Positions 25,180-50,337 of a stretch of 50,740 nucleotides of DNA are shown here, in pieces; the stretch's first letter is position 1; every line of letters starts with the position of its first letter. The notes beneath the pieces are model-generated. The model was given only the letters and a program-made list of their open reading frames with translations, made no database searches and had not been told where the DNA came from. A program made the position numbers and the translations under genes. This stretch comes from a virus, in the IMG/VR virus record IMGVR_UViG_3300010430_000069, positions 1 to 50,740 of that record, one strand, 5' to 3'.

Positions 25180-25528
25180 CGAACCAGTGATCTATCGATG
25201 TTTTTTCAATCGTAGACAAAGGCAGTTTATTGACTGTGATCATGTTTTTTCCAGCATCAAAGATTCTTTAGCAGAAGCTGGAATAAAATTTACTGAAGTA
25301 GAAAACCAGACTCTCTACTTTCCAGTTAAACACACTCAAGTGGAGGACCTCAAGAAACGAGGAATCTTTGTTGTTATGTATGAACAGAATTACTGCATTG
25401 CTACCCAGCAGTTGGTATTGGACGTTCATTCGACTGAAAAGACTCCAGAAGAAATCGATGAACTCACCCAACATCAGATGACATCGATCATGATTTATCA
25501 ACGTATCAACTTCGAGCGAGATCTTTAA
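25172..25528 (+). CDS. Unknown small protein
   Basis: A 118-residue protein with mixed alpha/beta character (FFNRRQRQFIDCDHVFSSIK, GIFVVMYEQNYCIATQQLVL). It begins inside the stop region of the small cysteine protein, and its last base is shared with the start of the exonuclease gene. No family recognised. Position in the nucleotide-metabolism block is the only hint. Confidence 0.6.
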   Translation: MSDEPVIYRCFFNRRQRQFIDCDHVFSSIKDSLAEAGIKFTEVENQTLYFPVKHTQVEDLKKRGIFVVMYEQNYCIATQQLVLDVHSTEKTPEEIDELTQHQMTSIMIYQRINFERDL

Positions 25529-46066: not shown

Positions 46067-46200
46067 AAAAATAACCTGGGAGGCTCCCAGGTAAACCGAG
46101 CTCCCAGGATCCCAGGATCCCAGGCTCCCAGGACAACCGGGCTCCCAGGACAACCGGGCTCCCAGGATCCCAGGACAACCGGGCTCCCAGGTTATTTTTT
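46067..46200. terminator. Bidirectional terminator-like inverted repeat filled with 17-bp repeats
   Basis: ATAACCTGGGAG (46071-46082) and CTCCCAGGTTAT (46184-46195) form a 12-bp stem. A-runs on the left and T-runs on the right give T-tracts on both strands. Between the arms the words CTCCCAGGACAACCGGG and CCCAGGATCC are repeated several times. It sits exactly between the divergent cassette promoters at 46026-46054 and 46230-46258 and would insulate them from each other. Confidence 0.7.
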
Positions 46201-47349: not shown

Positions 47350-47520
47350 TTTTCTTCCTGAGAATTTTTTTTTCTCTAGGATTTTTTTTCTCCTGGGGAA
47401 AATTATTTTCTCTAGGATTTTTTTTTTCTCTTAGAAAACTTTTTTTTCCTAGAAATTAATTTTTTCCCCATGTGGGAAAATTATTGTTTTCTGGAAAAAG
47501 TTTTCTTCTCAGGAAAATTA
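47338..47520. repeat. T-rich low-complexity tract with repeated words
   Basis: About 180 bases made of T-runs broken by short words. TTTTCTCTAGGATTTTTTTT occurs twice and GGAAAATTATT three times, with many self-complementary AATTTTCC/GGAAAATT pairs. No gene. It mirrors the A-rich tract at 42541-42625, so the two tracts flank the cassette island in inverted orientation. Confidence 0.75.
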
Positions 47521-47796
47521 TTCTCCCTTGAAGAAATTGGCAGCTCCAAACCCTTCGGCAATGGAGTCAAGGGAGCCCTGCTGGGAATCATCCAGTGTCG
47601 AATAGATGTCCTGGCAAATGTCTTTCAGGCAATTGTCAATTGCTTCGCTGATGGTTTGCAGGTGTGTCAGGGTGCGAACCTTGTGTCCATCGTTGTCTGA
47701 AGTCATGACCAGAGCGGCACCATGCTTCAAATGTTCCTGGCCTGATTGGATCCGTTTTAGCAATTCAATTGCTTCAATACTAGCTTTATCAAACAT
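47518..47796 (-). CDS. Unknown helical protein
   Basis: A 92-residue helical acidic protein (MFDKASIEAIELLKRIQSGQ, LTHLQTISEAIDNCLKDICQ). Small helical proteins of similar size follow upstream in the same strand, perhaps distant relatives. A role is unknown. Confidence 0.58.
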   Translation of the reverse strand: MFDKASIEAIELLKRIQSGQEHLKHGAALVMTSDNDGHKVRTLTHLQTISEAIDNCLKDICQDIYSTLDDSQQGSLDSIAEGFGAANFFKGE

Positions 47797-47869
47797 ATCG
47801 TATTTCCGAAGTGAGGGAAAGTGAAAAATAAGGGATTTTTGGATTTTCTTGTGGGTGCGTCAGAGCTCC

Positions 47870-48154
47870 TCAGGGCCTCTGTAACGTCCTCTCAAGGTTA
47901 TCCGCAATCTCATTCAAGTGAGGGTCGGAGAACTCGTCTCCGATGTTCCTGGACAGCTTAATGACAGCCTGAAGGCAGGTGTCATGGTTTGCATCGTCAG
48001 CCTCGTATCGGCAGACTTCATTCCTAGTTCTGACAACATCCGTCATTAGAGCCTTTGGATCCGCCACAGCATCCTGATTGCGAAGTACCAGGCTCTCGGC
48101 TGAGTCCAACAGTAACTGAAGCGTAGTCACGAGTGTAGACTTGTAGGAGCTCAT
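47870..48154 (-). CDS. Unknown helical protein
   Basis: From the ATG at 48154 (AGGA 8 bases upstream) the protein has 94 residues (MSSYKSTLVTTLQLLLDSAE, LSRNIGDEFSDPHLNEIADN). An in-frame start at 48193 lacks a ribosome site. It overlaps the upstream gene by 131 bases in another frame, far more than its neighbours do, so a frameshift or one false end is possible. Confidence 0.55.
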   Translation of the reverse strand: MSSYKSTLVTTLQLLLDSAESLVLRNQDAVADPKALMTDVVRTRNEVCRYEADDANHDTCLQAVIKLSRNIGDEFSDPHLNEIADNLERTLQRP

Positions 48155-48392
48155 CTCGTTGATCCTGAATGTGTTGTCCGAGTTGCCGTGCATACGAATC
48201 AGTTTTGGCTGCTTCCTGTGCCATCAGGATAGCTGCATCGTGGTAGTCAATTAAGCATTCCACAAGTTTCTTTTCCACTTGAGGAACTACCGCCGAGAAA
48301 TCGACAATCTCAGAATCCAATGCTAGGTAGATCGAAGGAATCGACTCGACCAGCTCTTCAATACGTTCTTGGATCAGGTCACGATTAGACAT
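48024..48392 (-). CDS. Unknown helical protein with Cys-rich tail
   Basis: A 122-residue protein; the first 80 residues are regular helix (MSNRDLIQERIEELVESIPS, LIDYHDAAILMAQEAAKTDS). The last 25 (SQSGCCGGSKGSNDGCCQN) are low-complexity and lie where another frame also codes. The true C-terminus may be shorter or joined to the next gene by frameshift. Confidence 0.52.
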   Translation of the reverse strand: MSNRDLIQERIEELVESIPSIYLALDSEIVDFSAVVPQVEKKLVECLIDYHDAAILMAQEAAKTDSYARQLGQHIQDQRDELLQVYTRDYASVTVGLSREPGTSQSGCCGGSKGSNDGCCQN

Positions 48393-48717
48393 TCGGTTTC
48401 TCCCATGTCAGTAGTGTTTCTTTTCCCCATTGTTCTTCCATTTCTGAAAGATTCTCCTGCATCGTCCGCATCTCATTGGCATTTGCCTCCAGAACATCTG
48501 GTGGCATAAACTTAGCTGCTTCGGAGATTACCAGTCCGCAGTAGTACTTGAGTTTTGTGATGCTCAGATCGTAGAAATCCAGCATTTCCGAAGAATCTTT
48601 CCCTTGGAATTCGTTGAGCAGGACTCCTGCCTTAACCATTTCCAACAAAGCTGGGCAAAGATCAACGATCAGCTGGAGATTACTTACAATCTCGGTATCT
48701 TGGAGTGTCTTACTCAT
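48385..48717 (-). CDS. Unknown helical protein
   Basis: From the ATG at 48717 (MSKTLQDTEIVSNLQLIVDL), in an ATGAGTAA overlap with the previous gene, the protein has 110 residues. Mostly helical with acidic patches (ANEMRTMQENLSEMEEQWGK). Longer in-frame starts lie inside the previous gene and are unlikely. No family recognised. Confidence 0.58.
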   Translation of the reverse strand: MSKTLQDTEIVSNLQLIVDLCPALLEMVKAGVLLNEFQGKDSSEMLDFYDLSITKLKYYCGLVISEAAKFMPPDVLEANANEMRTMQENLSEMEEQWGKETLLTWEKPNV

Positions 48718-49000
48718 TTTCAAAGGTCTCTTGGAAGGAACGAAGATCTTGCAAGTCAGCAGCCAGCTGGTCCAAACCATCAACGATACTTTGATCGTCC
48801 TGGTAGTTGGGGATGGATCGGACGCCAGCTTCCAGCTTTTCCCCACAGAAGATTGCTGAAGCAACCAAGCTCTGGGTGATATCCTCGTAGCTGTTGGGGG
48901 GCATTTTGTTCAGAGCAGCATTGCCCATGAAATCTGCAGCCTCTGAGATGATGTTGAACGAAGTCTGAACGTTGTCTTCGCGTGTCTTGTCTTCCGACAT
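48710..49000 (-). CDS. Unknown helical acidic protein
   Basis: A 96-residue protein (MSEDKTREDNVQTSFNIISE, YEDITQSLVASAIFCGEKLE, GLDQLAADLQDLRSFQETF), with TTAGGAGAA before the ATG. It heads the run of four small helical proteins transcribed leftwards from near the tRNA-like cluster. No family recognised. Confidence 0.6.
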   Translation of the reverse strand: MSEDKTREDNVQTSFNIISEAADFMGNAALNKMPPNSYEDITQSLVASAIFCGEKLEAGVRSIPNYQDDQSIVDGLDQLAADLQDLRSFQETFENE

Positions 49001-49145: not shown

Positions 49146-49211
49146 AAGTCACCGCTGGAATCGAACCAGCGTTCCCTCAATTGAGGTGTCCTACCACTGG
49201 ACGAGGCGACT
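49146..49211 (-). tRNA. tRNA-like element with a 2-nt anticodon loop
   Basis: Minus strand: acceptor AGTCGCC / GGTGACT (7 bp with one G-T), T8, D stem GTCC / GGAC with A14, GG and A21 in the loop, then T arm GCTGG-TTCGATT-CCAGC. Variable region GAAC. The anticodon stem CCTCA / TGAGG is intact, but only AT lies between its strands where seven bases are expected. So the body is a normal tRNA with its anticodon missing. Pseudogene, decoy, or a substrate for insertion/editing are possible; normal decoding is not. Confidence 0.7.
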
Positions 49212-49311
49212 TTAAAATGCTCCCATCGCATAGCCGACGACAGGAGCGGATAGATTAAAAGTCTATTTGTTTTCCCTCGCAATTGTACAACGTTTAACCG
49301 TAAGGTTTAGT

Positions 49312-49402
49312 CTGACAGGGTTTCGTCTTAGCCTTTGGACAACCTCCCAGGATATTGTTTGCCCCGAGCTGGGAGGGCCGGACTCGAACCGGCATAAAAC
49401 CC
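49312..49402 (-). tRNA. Circularly permuted tRNA-like gene (3' half before 5' half), unit B
   Basis: Minus strand order: 49402-49369 holds G38, GGTTT, variable TAT, T arm GCCGG-TTCGAGT-CCGGC, 3' acceptor CCTCCCA and discriminator G. A 19-base linker follows. Then 49349-49312 holds 5' acceptor TGGGAGG, TT, D arm GTCC-AAAGGCTAA-GAC, G26, AAACC, and loop CTGTCAG. Acceptor pairs 7/7 and anticodon stem 5/5 only in permuted order. T33 and anticodon GTC (Asp) are readable in the 5' half if the join is near 37/38; T1-A72 with G73 is otherwise a Gln-type end. So identity is open. Confidence 0.75.
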
Positions 49403-49481
49403 GCATAAAGGTCCCACGGAATCGATTACAATCGCAATTCGTTGTCTAAGTCTCAAGCAATAACCTAAGACTAAATTGTCC

Positions 49482-49556
49482 TCCTGCCTCCTCGGCCACT
49501 GGGATACCTCCCGTTAAAAGTCGGGAGGGTTGGATTCGAACCAACGTCTAACAGGG
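49482..49556 (-). tRNA. Circularly permuted tRNA-like gene, unit C
   Basis: Minus strand order: 49556-49521 holds CCTGT, variable TAGAC, T arm GTTGG-TTCGAAT-CCAAC, 3' acceptor CCTCCCG and discriminator A. A 7-base linker follows. Then 49513-49482 holds 5' acceptor CGGGAGG, TA, D arm TCC-CAGTGGCCGA-GGA, G26 and GCAGG. Acceptor pairs 7/7; anticodon stem GCAGG/CCTGT pairs 5/5 with one G-T; A14, G15-C48, G18G19 and A21 are in place. The anticodon cannot be read, because neither flank gives a T33. C1-G72 with A73 recalls proline tRNAs. Confidence 0.72.
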
Positions 49557-49602
49557 TGGACGGTTCAAGCTGAGCTTACTACTAAGCCTGTTTGCTTGTA
49601 TC

Positions 49603-50337
49603 CTATTCGCCCCACAGGTAGTCAAAGACTGCCTCTGAAACGTGTTGTTCTTGTACGTCCAGGCTGTTGGCCTGTTCGCGAGCTTTCTTCACTGCCTCAA
49701 CCAGTTTGGTCAGTCGAGCCTGGATCTCACGCTTCTCAGCCGGCGACAATGCCGCGGCAAAGTTAACGCTCTTCCAGTAACCAACCAGGACATCCTCATT
49801 GTAGGCCTGAACCTGTGCTGGATGTTTGTCGGTTGCTTCGTAGAGTACTTGCACCTTTGGTACTTTCTTGCTACGAATGGTTTCCACAGGAGCTGACACG
49901 TACAGTTCCTGGTTGCTGTCCCAGGTCCAGTCTACGGAATCGCTGAGCTCTGGGAGCTTGTCAACGAAGGTACGTAGGTTGACCAATTGCTTCTCCAGGA
50001 AAAGCAGGTAGGTGACCGGGGCATCTGCAATCACAGTCTTACCGTCTATCTCGACATCAGCCGTTGCAGTTTGATTTCCCCATTCCTGGGTAGCTACCAC
50101 GTCAAAGTAGTCTTGCAGTGGAGCCTGAGCAGACGTCAGGATGTCCCGTACGCGACTCACGACTTTCTTGTTTTCTGCCGGCAGGCGATCACCCTCGTCA
50201 TCTTTCGGAGTGTACGTTCGACTCAAACCAACGAAGTTGTCGGTTCGCTGTGATGCATGATGAAGTTCGGTCAGGGTCTTCTCGGCACGAGTTTTCTTGC
50301 CTTTGAGGACAGCCAGGACTTGGTTAAGTTTTCCCAT
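49603..50337 (-). CDS. Conserved phage protein (DUF7873-like)
   Basis: The 244-residue protein matches a family I recall as DUF7873, common in actinobacterial phages. Matching segments are KLNQVLAVLKGKKTRAEKTL, ELHHASQRTDNFVGLSRTY, VTYLLFLEKQLVNLRTFVDK, WTWDSNQELYVSAP, EATDKHPAQVQAYNEDVLVG and YWKSVNFAAALSP. Function is unknown; the long helical C-terminus (RLTKLVEAVKKAREQANSLD) suggests assembly or binding. It lies directly upstream of the permuted tRNA-like genes on the same strand. Confidence 0.78.
   Translation of the reverse strand: MGKLNQVLAVLKGKKTRAEKTLTELHHASQRTDNFVGLSRTYTPKDDEGDRLPAENKKVVSRVRDILTSAQAPLQDYFDVVATQEWGNQTATADVEIDGKTVIADAPVTYLLFLEKQLVNLRTFVDKLPELSDSVDWTWDSNQELYVSAPVETIRSKKVPKVQVLYEATDKHPAQVQAYNEDVLVGYWKSVNFAAALSPAEKREIQARLTKLVEAVKKAREQANSLDVQEQHVSEAVFDYLWGE

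Follow-up and report, generated by a model that had tools for sequence, protein, structure and literature searches.

A phage noncoding RNA with two permuted tRNA-mimic modules, linked to DUF7873 genes, and an adjacent tRNA body without a usable anticodon

Several described systems come close to the locus reported here. The bacterial Y RNA YrlA (RF02553), the partner of Ro60/Rsr, carries a T-arm, an acceptor hairpin and a D-arm on a basal helix, as seen in the Rfam alignment. YrlA is described as binding Ro60 and mimicking tRNA arms (PMC8394870). Permuted tRNA genes of algae and archaea encode the 3' half ahead of the 5' half; PMC3978253 reports that they are spliced at a BHB motif by the tRNA endonuclease and lists six algae and one archaeon. 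Two-piece tmRNA possesses a permuted tRNA-like domain with an excisable linker between the acceptor strands. Finally, there is the ordinary phage tRNA gene (RF00005).

The window, i.e., the complete stretch of 50,740 nucleotides of the IMG/VR virus record IMGVR_UViG_3300010430_000069, shares traits with all of them. An original prediction, made from the letters alone, had reported a tRNA-like element with a complete body and a two-base anticodon loop, next to two permuted units with a break at this same loop, and had proposed that the locus targets the anticodon loop specifically. The explanation which we consider probable is a different one: a decoding-dead tRNA occupies a tRNA slot beside a conserved two-module tRNA-mimic RNA, and this RNA would work together with a DUF7873 protein. 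The loop-less tRNA is an ordinary and minor point beside this tandem RNA. The features are collected in Table 1.

Table 1. Features of the locus in window coordinates
Feature	Position	Strand	Basis or remark
DUF7873 protein gene, 244 aa	49603..50337	minus	Pfam PF25283, 318.7 bits (cut-off 27)
Tandem noncoding RNA, approximate body	49273..49607	minus	alignment A4 and structure, model R1; would reach 49219 with the 3' hairpin
Permuted tRNA-mimic module 1	49483..49555	minus	module finder; R1 38.4 bits, E 3.3e-8 over 49455-49570
Module 1, 3' half	stem strand 49551-49555, T-arm 49529-49545, acceptor 49522-49528	minus	
Module 1, linker	49514-49521	minus	
Module 1, 5' half	49483-49513	minus	
Conserved middle motif	49452..49468	minus	TTATTGCT in the window, TTATCGCTC in most relatives; alignment A4
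Permuted tRNA-mimic module 2	49319..49401	minus	module finder; R1 67.4 bits, E 1e-15 over 49273-49442
Module 2, 3' half	stem strand 49397-49401, T-arm 49377-49393, acceptor 49370-49376	minus	
Module 2, linker	49350-49369	minus	
Module 2, 5' half	49319-49349	minus	
Conserved trailer motif TTAAACG of the tandem RNA	49288..49299	minus	alignment A4
3' hairpin of the tandem RNA, conserved GGNTA(T) loop	49219..49247	minus	11-bp hairpin; GGCTATG in the window
tRNA body, anticodon arm five nt short	49146..49211	minus	RF00005, fold, blastn neighbours
Anticodon arm of the tRNA body	49175-49186	minus	CCTCAATTGAGG; 12 nt instead of 17

The DUF7873 gene lies directly upstream of the tandem RNA on the same strand. 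We found 73 homologues in phage records, which comprise Gordonia, Arthrobacter, Rhodococcus, Rhizobium, Vibrio, Klebsiella, Serratia and cyanobacterial phages, and a further set of 110 in IMG/VR. The 350-550 bases behind the gene are mostly unannotated in the records examined and carry permuted units. That the tandem RNA has apparently escaped annotation would be explained by the fact that tRNA finders seek cis-order cloverleaves. AlphaFold2 models the DUF7873 protein confidently, with a mean pLDDT of 92.9. A Foldseek search with this model returned no match at E <= 0.001 in PDB or BFVD, and a VIA structure comparison gave Z values of up to 7.0 at 15 Å rmsd, from which no function is read. A PDB sequence search was empty at useful E-values, and PADLOC, NCBIfam and PHROGs have no family for DUF7873. 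No fold of the protein has been solved or recognised, so that its putative RNA binding is guessed from the linkage alone. Searches of the open-licence literature retrieved no paper on DUF7873 and none on permuted tRNAs in phages, absences which carry little weight.

The upstream element, a phage noncoding RNA of about 330-390 nt, is conserved and comprises two tRNA-mimic modules in circularly permuted form. The order within the modules is T-arm, acceptor hairpin, D-arm, and each module sits on a helix at the position of the anticodon stem of a tRNA, as in YrlA. In module 2 this helix extends as nine covarying pairs into the RNA core. The permuted units thus lack an anticodon because the anticodon stem is replaced by a helix which joins the module to the core. 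The leader in alignment A4, about 50 nt ahead of module 1, contains repeats of a six-base pattern such as AAGCTGAAACTGA, and these are echoed in the middle part of the RNA, where CAGACTCAG flanks TTATCGCTC on both sides. The predicted pairs do not explain these repeats; possibly they are protein-binding sites. Beyond the tRNA body, at 47518-49000 on the minus strand, is a row of short overlapping ORFs which by eye look like diverged copies of each other; a PHROG search with those ORFs that were tested returned no family.

The arrangement is not peculiar to this virus. We searched with a pattern consisting of T-arm, acceptor strand, linker, complementary acceptor strand and D-arm. Of 89 DUF7873 loci, 84 have at least one permuted module no further than 900 nt away and 57 have at least two, whereas control stretches from these loci, 267 in number, gave 20 hits (the count leaves out L034, the sister of the window, as well as L114 and L115, and retains near-duplicate contigs). 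Perfect 5-bp stems at the anticodon position, joining the two halves, are present in 33 of 85 first and 32 of 55 second modules, as against about 6 and 5 in shuffles. From 49 two-module sequences those with short linkers, 39 in number, were aligned with the window; L056 was dropped as out of range, leaving 38 loci and the window (alignment A4). RNAalifold on these 39 sequences predicts 46 pairs, with compensatory changes in 44. For module 2 and the core, 93.0% of the cells pair in 35 sequences versus 59.7% in shuffled ones (equalled in 0 of 500) and 39-46% after sliding.

The covariation reaches the tertiary structure. The top covarying column pairs fall almost all within the structure, and the first outside of it is the tertiary pair 15-48 of module 2, which is T-A in 21, C-G in 17 and something else in 1 of the 39 sequences. 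Pair 8-14 is T-A in 39 of 39. The partners of 15-48 are located on opposite sides of the permutation; therefore the two halves fold as one tRNA-like domain. A scan for further long-range pairs turned up none that convinced beyond the structure and 15-48. The permuted units are a real RNA structure which mimics tRNA, and they are not tRNAs.

Model R1 was built from 35 loci of A4 with the window excluded, and it retrieved the window at E 1e-15. The two neighbouring units of the original prediction are thus confirmed, and as structural RNA, by the module finder as well as by R1. Among 45 held-out DUF7873 loci 43 matched at E <= 2e-5; this number excludes pieces of G001, G002 and the phages GodonK and Phendrix, which were searched in addition. 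The two misses are L102, a weak match, and L105, with too little flanking DNA. In L029 the RNA is about 2 kb away, in L075 it is on the other strand. In all of 12 whole records the best R1 match adjoins the DUF7873 gene. The reverse direction leads to the same partner. Scans of IMG/VR by the middle motif alone gave 79 places, of which 12 have a module 70-74 nt further on. DUF7873 is encoded in the retrieved stretch at 10 of these 12 and on the same contig at the other two, where the stretches start too near the motif. Three of the motif-plus-module contigs were new to our locus set, and all three carry DUF7873; most others were already in the set.

How does the tandem RNA relate to YrlA? Known YrlA RNAs bind PNPase in addition to Ro60, and TruB and DusA modify them. 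Topologically the likeness is evident. The differences are that the phage RNA unites two modules in one molecule, that its partner gene is DUF7873 and not Ro60, and that its modules often encode a CCA after the acceptor. The YrlA model matches on modules with 44.7 bits in L048, 32.9 bits in phage Mimi and 23.5 bits in the species of the window, at a cut-off of 69 bits; in none of 12 records was this Rfam gathering cut-off exceeded, and similarly weak matches occur in 13 of 14 control genomes. These matches therefore demonstrate topology, not membership. A Ro60/TROVE gene was found in 7 of 62 records and is absent in 55, including the sister contig of the window (the search of IMG/VR covered 50 of 79 contigs). 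Rhizobium phage RHph_TM21B (L120; regions 112.2-112.5 kb and 113.4-114.1 kb) has a TROVE gene, about 1 kb upstream of which lie two YrlA-like RNAs; 5 kb away it also has a DUF7873 locus with a permuted module of its own. By analogy the tandem RNA would work like a YrlA module, and we do not file it as YrlA.

An identity as two-piece tmRNA can be rejected. The alanine identity pair G3-U70 is present in 1 of 78 first and 0 of 50 second modules, the RNA has two tRNA-like domains, and the permuted-tmRNA model matches the modules weakly, with 14.9 of 47 bits. Inspection by eye showed no tag reading frame. In this count, as in those of position 33 and CCA below, near-duplicates or fragments were dropped (L039, L057, L068, L074, L079, L082, L087, L098). 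A permuted group I intron was rejected as well: the units are too close together and there is no Rfam hit.

The element behind the tandem RNA is of another kind. In the window record RF00005 matches it with 46.4 bits (E 1.8e-10, cut-off 29), and the score in the sister contig G001 is the same, which excludes chance. Default Rfam scans and ARAGORN made no call there or elsewhere in the window; a permissive Rfam scan of 48.9-49.8 kb gave sub-threshold matches only. Read on the minus strand, the acceptor is AGTCGCC/GGTGACT, the D-arm GTCC-AGTGGTA-GGAC, the anticodon arm CCTCA-AT-TGAGG, the variable region GAAC and the T-arm GCTGG-TTCGATT-CCAGC. The bases for the tertiary contacts, as read from the sequence, are in place (G15/C48, U8/A14, GG in the D-loop, TTC in the T-loop). 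A 68-nt cloverleaf is the minimum-energy fold (z -3.4), and none of 200 shuffles was equally stable. The complete tRNA body of the original prediction thus stands, and so do the letters of its 5-bp stem CCTCA/TGAGG with AT between; the two-base loop does not, since free-energy folding closes the arm with 4 bp and a 4-nt AAUU loop. Compared with an ordinary phage tRNA gene, the element shares the acceptor, D and T arms and the tertiary contacts and differs in the shortened anticodon arm, without the normal 7-nt loop. It has no usable anticodon and cannot decode.

The nearest phage DNA by blastn is annotated as tRNA-Glu in Vibrio phage JSF10 and as tRNA-Gln in Phaeobacter phage MD18, at 74-77% identity with weak E-values. 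Bodies of less than 68 nt are rare: in 750 kb of related phage DNA they number 5 among 233 distinct cis-order tRNA bodies, the element included (15 duplicate or overlapping loci were skipped). Another one, at 4155-4218 of L070, lies downstream of a tandem RNA; it is a cis-order body of 64 nt, and its anticodon arm is damaged. The remaining ones are doubtful or near-normal by eye. A body with this short a loop is known from one virus only.

This virus was probably assembled twice. The stretch 50337-49000, i.e., 1,338 bases with the element included, is letter-identical in IMGVR_UViG_3300006467_000134 (G001). G001, of 105,608 bases, covers the whole window at 99.8-100% identity and is probably a separate assembly of the same virus. 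The window aligns to it in three pieces, and the ends of G001 overlap on the window by 127 bases (25207-25333); probably this is a complete circular genome of about 105.5 kb. An indel separates the two in a repeat near 46.1 kb (46081-46191). The agreement speaks against a one-off assembly error in the letters of the element; G001 is not an independent or distant homologue.

The position of the element bears on its interpretation. It starts 7 nt from the end of the 3' hairpin of the tandem RNA. A hairpin of at least 10 bp with the GGNTA loop is present in 59 loci. In 10 of them, the element included, the start of a tRNA falls between -8 and 25 nt past the end of the hairpin, versus 0.93 expected; the maximum in 10,000 scatterings was 6. 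The element was entered into this count by hand, without an ARAGORN call, and L039, L056, L057, L068, L071, L074, L079, L082, L087, L088, L098 and L105 were left out as duplicates or as too short downstream. At nine of the 58 other loci ARAGORN calls a tRNA 3-11 nt behind the hairpin and assigns the amino acid in eight; the calls are Lys, Val, Leu, Ile and one undetermined. Normal-loop homologues at the same place, which the original prediction had named as evidence against itself, are therefore largely found by position; as the anticodons differ, they are not proven homologues by sequence. In another 9 of the 59 loci the tRNA comes before the hairpin, and most loci have no abutting tRNA. Those with a tRNA or tRNA-like element directly before the hairpin are L041, L043, L046, L048, L066, L089, L108, L031 and L032; several of these elements have odd ARAGORN calls (tRNA-???, SeC). 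The slot tRNAs may reflect merely a dense tRNA cluster. The element occupies this tRNA slot, and only the part needed for decoding is gone.

Most likely, then, the element is a decoding-dead tRNA, perhaps kept as processing punctuation: either a recent pseudogene, or a slot tRNA which is put up with or which persists because tRNA-processing enzymes cut there. A tRNA gene with a Glu/Gln-like body would have lost five anticodon-loop bases in this virus, which would have ended decoding. That nothing else happened, i.e., that a phage tRNA gene was recently inactivated when 5 nt were deleted from the tip of its anticodon hairpin, and that its remainder is unselected, has in our estimate a nearly even chance. 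The state is confined to one virus, and L070 offers a second short body with a damaged anticodon arm. Around DUF7873 in GodonK there are about 30 ordinary tRNAs versus two called in the sister contig, as if the cluster were shrinking. Against a plain pseudogene stand the intact stems and tertiary contacts, and the location 7 nt behind a conserved hairpin in a slot which is filled in nine of 58 other loci. According to the earlier argument, a random pseudogene should have lost stem pairs as well; for one recent deletion of 5 nt this is not valid. Nor would a common cause for three 'broken' elements be needed, because two lack the anticodon by design and one by deletion. The proposal that the locus targets the anticodon loop finds no support: the two neighbours are permuted mimic modules, and the third element is a separate cis-order tRNA of this virus only.

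Punctuation of transcripts by tRNAs is established. With acceptor, D and T arms intact, host RNase P and 3'-end nucleases should still cut the element, which immediately follows the terminal hairpin of this RNA, in a slot taken by ordinary tRNAs in some relatives. If the element has any use left, this would therefore be to free the 3' end of the tandem RNA upstream; in such a role loss of the loop costs nothing, whereas loss of the body would. That the body was kept for this purpose is conceivable though somewhat unlikely. The slot enrichment and the intact arms argue for it; the lack of a tRNA in the slot of most loci, and the tRNAs ahead of the hairpin in some, argue against it. A recent neutral deletion accounts for the element equally well without a punctuation role.

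The element as a decoy for, or a tRNA resistant to, host anticodon nucleases was among the earlier suggestions, and we consider it very improbable. Phage tRNAs with altered anticodon loops have been proposed, in PMC10264068, to evade such nucleases. However, for want of an anticodon such a tRNA cannot stand in for one of the host, and a decoy would have to present the loop to which the nuclease binds. The occurrence is also single, and the neighbouring permuted units are explained otherwise.

Even less credit can be given to the view that the permuted units are true tRNA genes of the circularly permuted type and that splicing joins their halves into decoding tRNAs, in the manner of red algae and one archaeon. 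The 3' half does precede the 5' half, the cloverleaf stems are formed, and CCA follows the discriminator in 40 of 78 first and 24 of 50 second modules; this encoded CCA points to a tRNA-like 3' end being produced or recognised in at least part of the family. Yet there is no anticodon loop, T at position 33 is seen in only 10 of 32 first and 14 of 29 second modules with a perfect stem, and in module 2 the helix at the anticodon position reaches into the core by nine covarying pairs. A tRNA-splicing endonuclease is not known in bacteria, and it was found in none of 12 whole phage records; BHB splicing was rejected for this reason and for the missing loop. RtcB was found in 1 of the 12 and a T4-type RNA ligase above cut-off in 2; the sister contig has none of the three. 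After these searches the idea that the loop is supplied after transcription is left without support. Least credible is that an assembly or sequencing error took out the five bases. In its favour, both records derive from metagenome assemblies; against it, the shared 1,338 bases agree in two separately assembled contigs.

With a decoding-dead slot tRNA beside a conserved tRNA mimic as the preferred reading, the most likely mechanism is that a two-headed mimic, once expressed, would offer tRNA-like surfaces to tRNA-binding enzymes together with DUF7873. A more far-reaching proposal, which we regard as unlikely, is that the DUF7873-linked RNAs form a new, Ro60-independent class of two-headed tRNA mimics. 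With both modules cut at the linker by RNase P and 3' nucleases of the host, the RNA would consist of three pieces, and its two CCA-bearing heads would be held together by the covarying core and DUF7873. Phages of several bacterial phyla would in this manner capture or redirect a tRNA-binding host machine, and the loop-less tRNA would be kept only as a cut site that frees the 3' end.

In phages of Gordonia, Arthrobacter, Rhodococcus, Rhizobium, Vibrio and cyanobacteria a conserved, covarying two-module RNA thus accompanies a single protein family that is uncharacterised. The phages GodonK, Mimi and NiceHouse are models in which the tandem RNA can be tested. 'Permuted tRNA genes' in phage clusters, be warned, need not be tRNAs. 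Above all, these observations suggest that tRNA mimicry of the YrlA type is not tied to Ro60.
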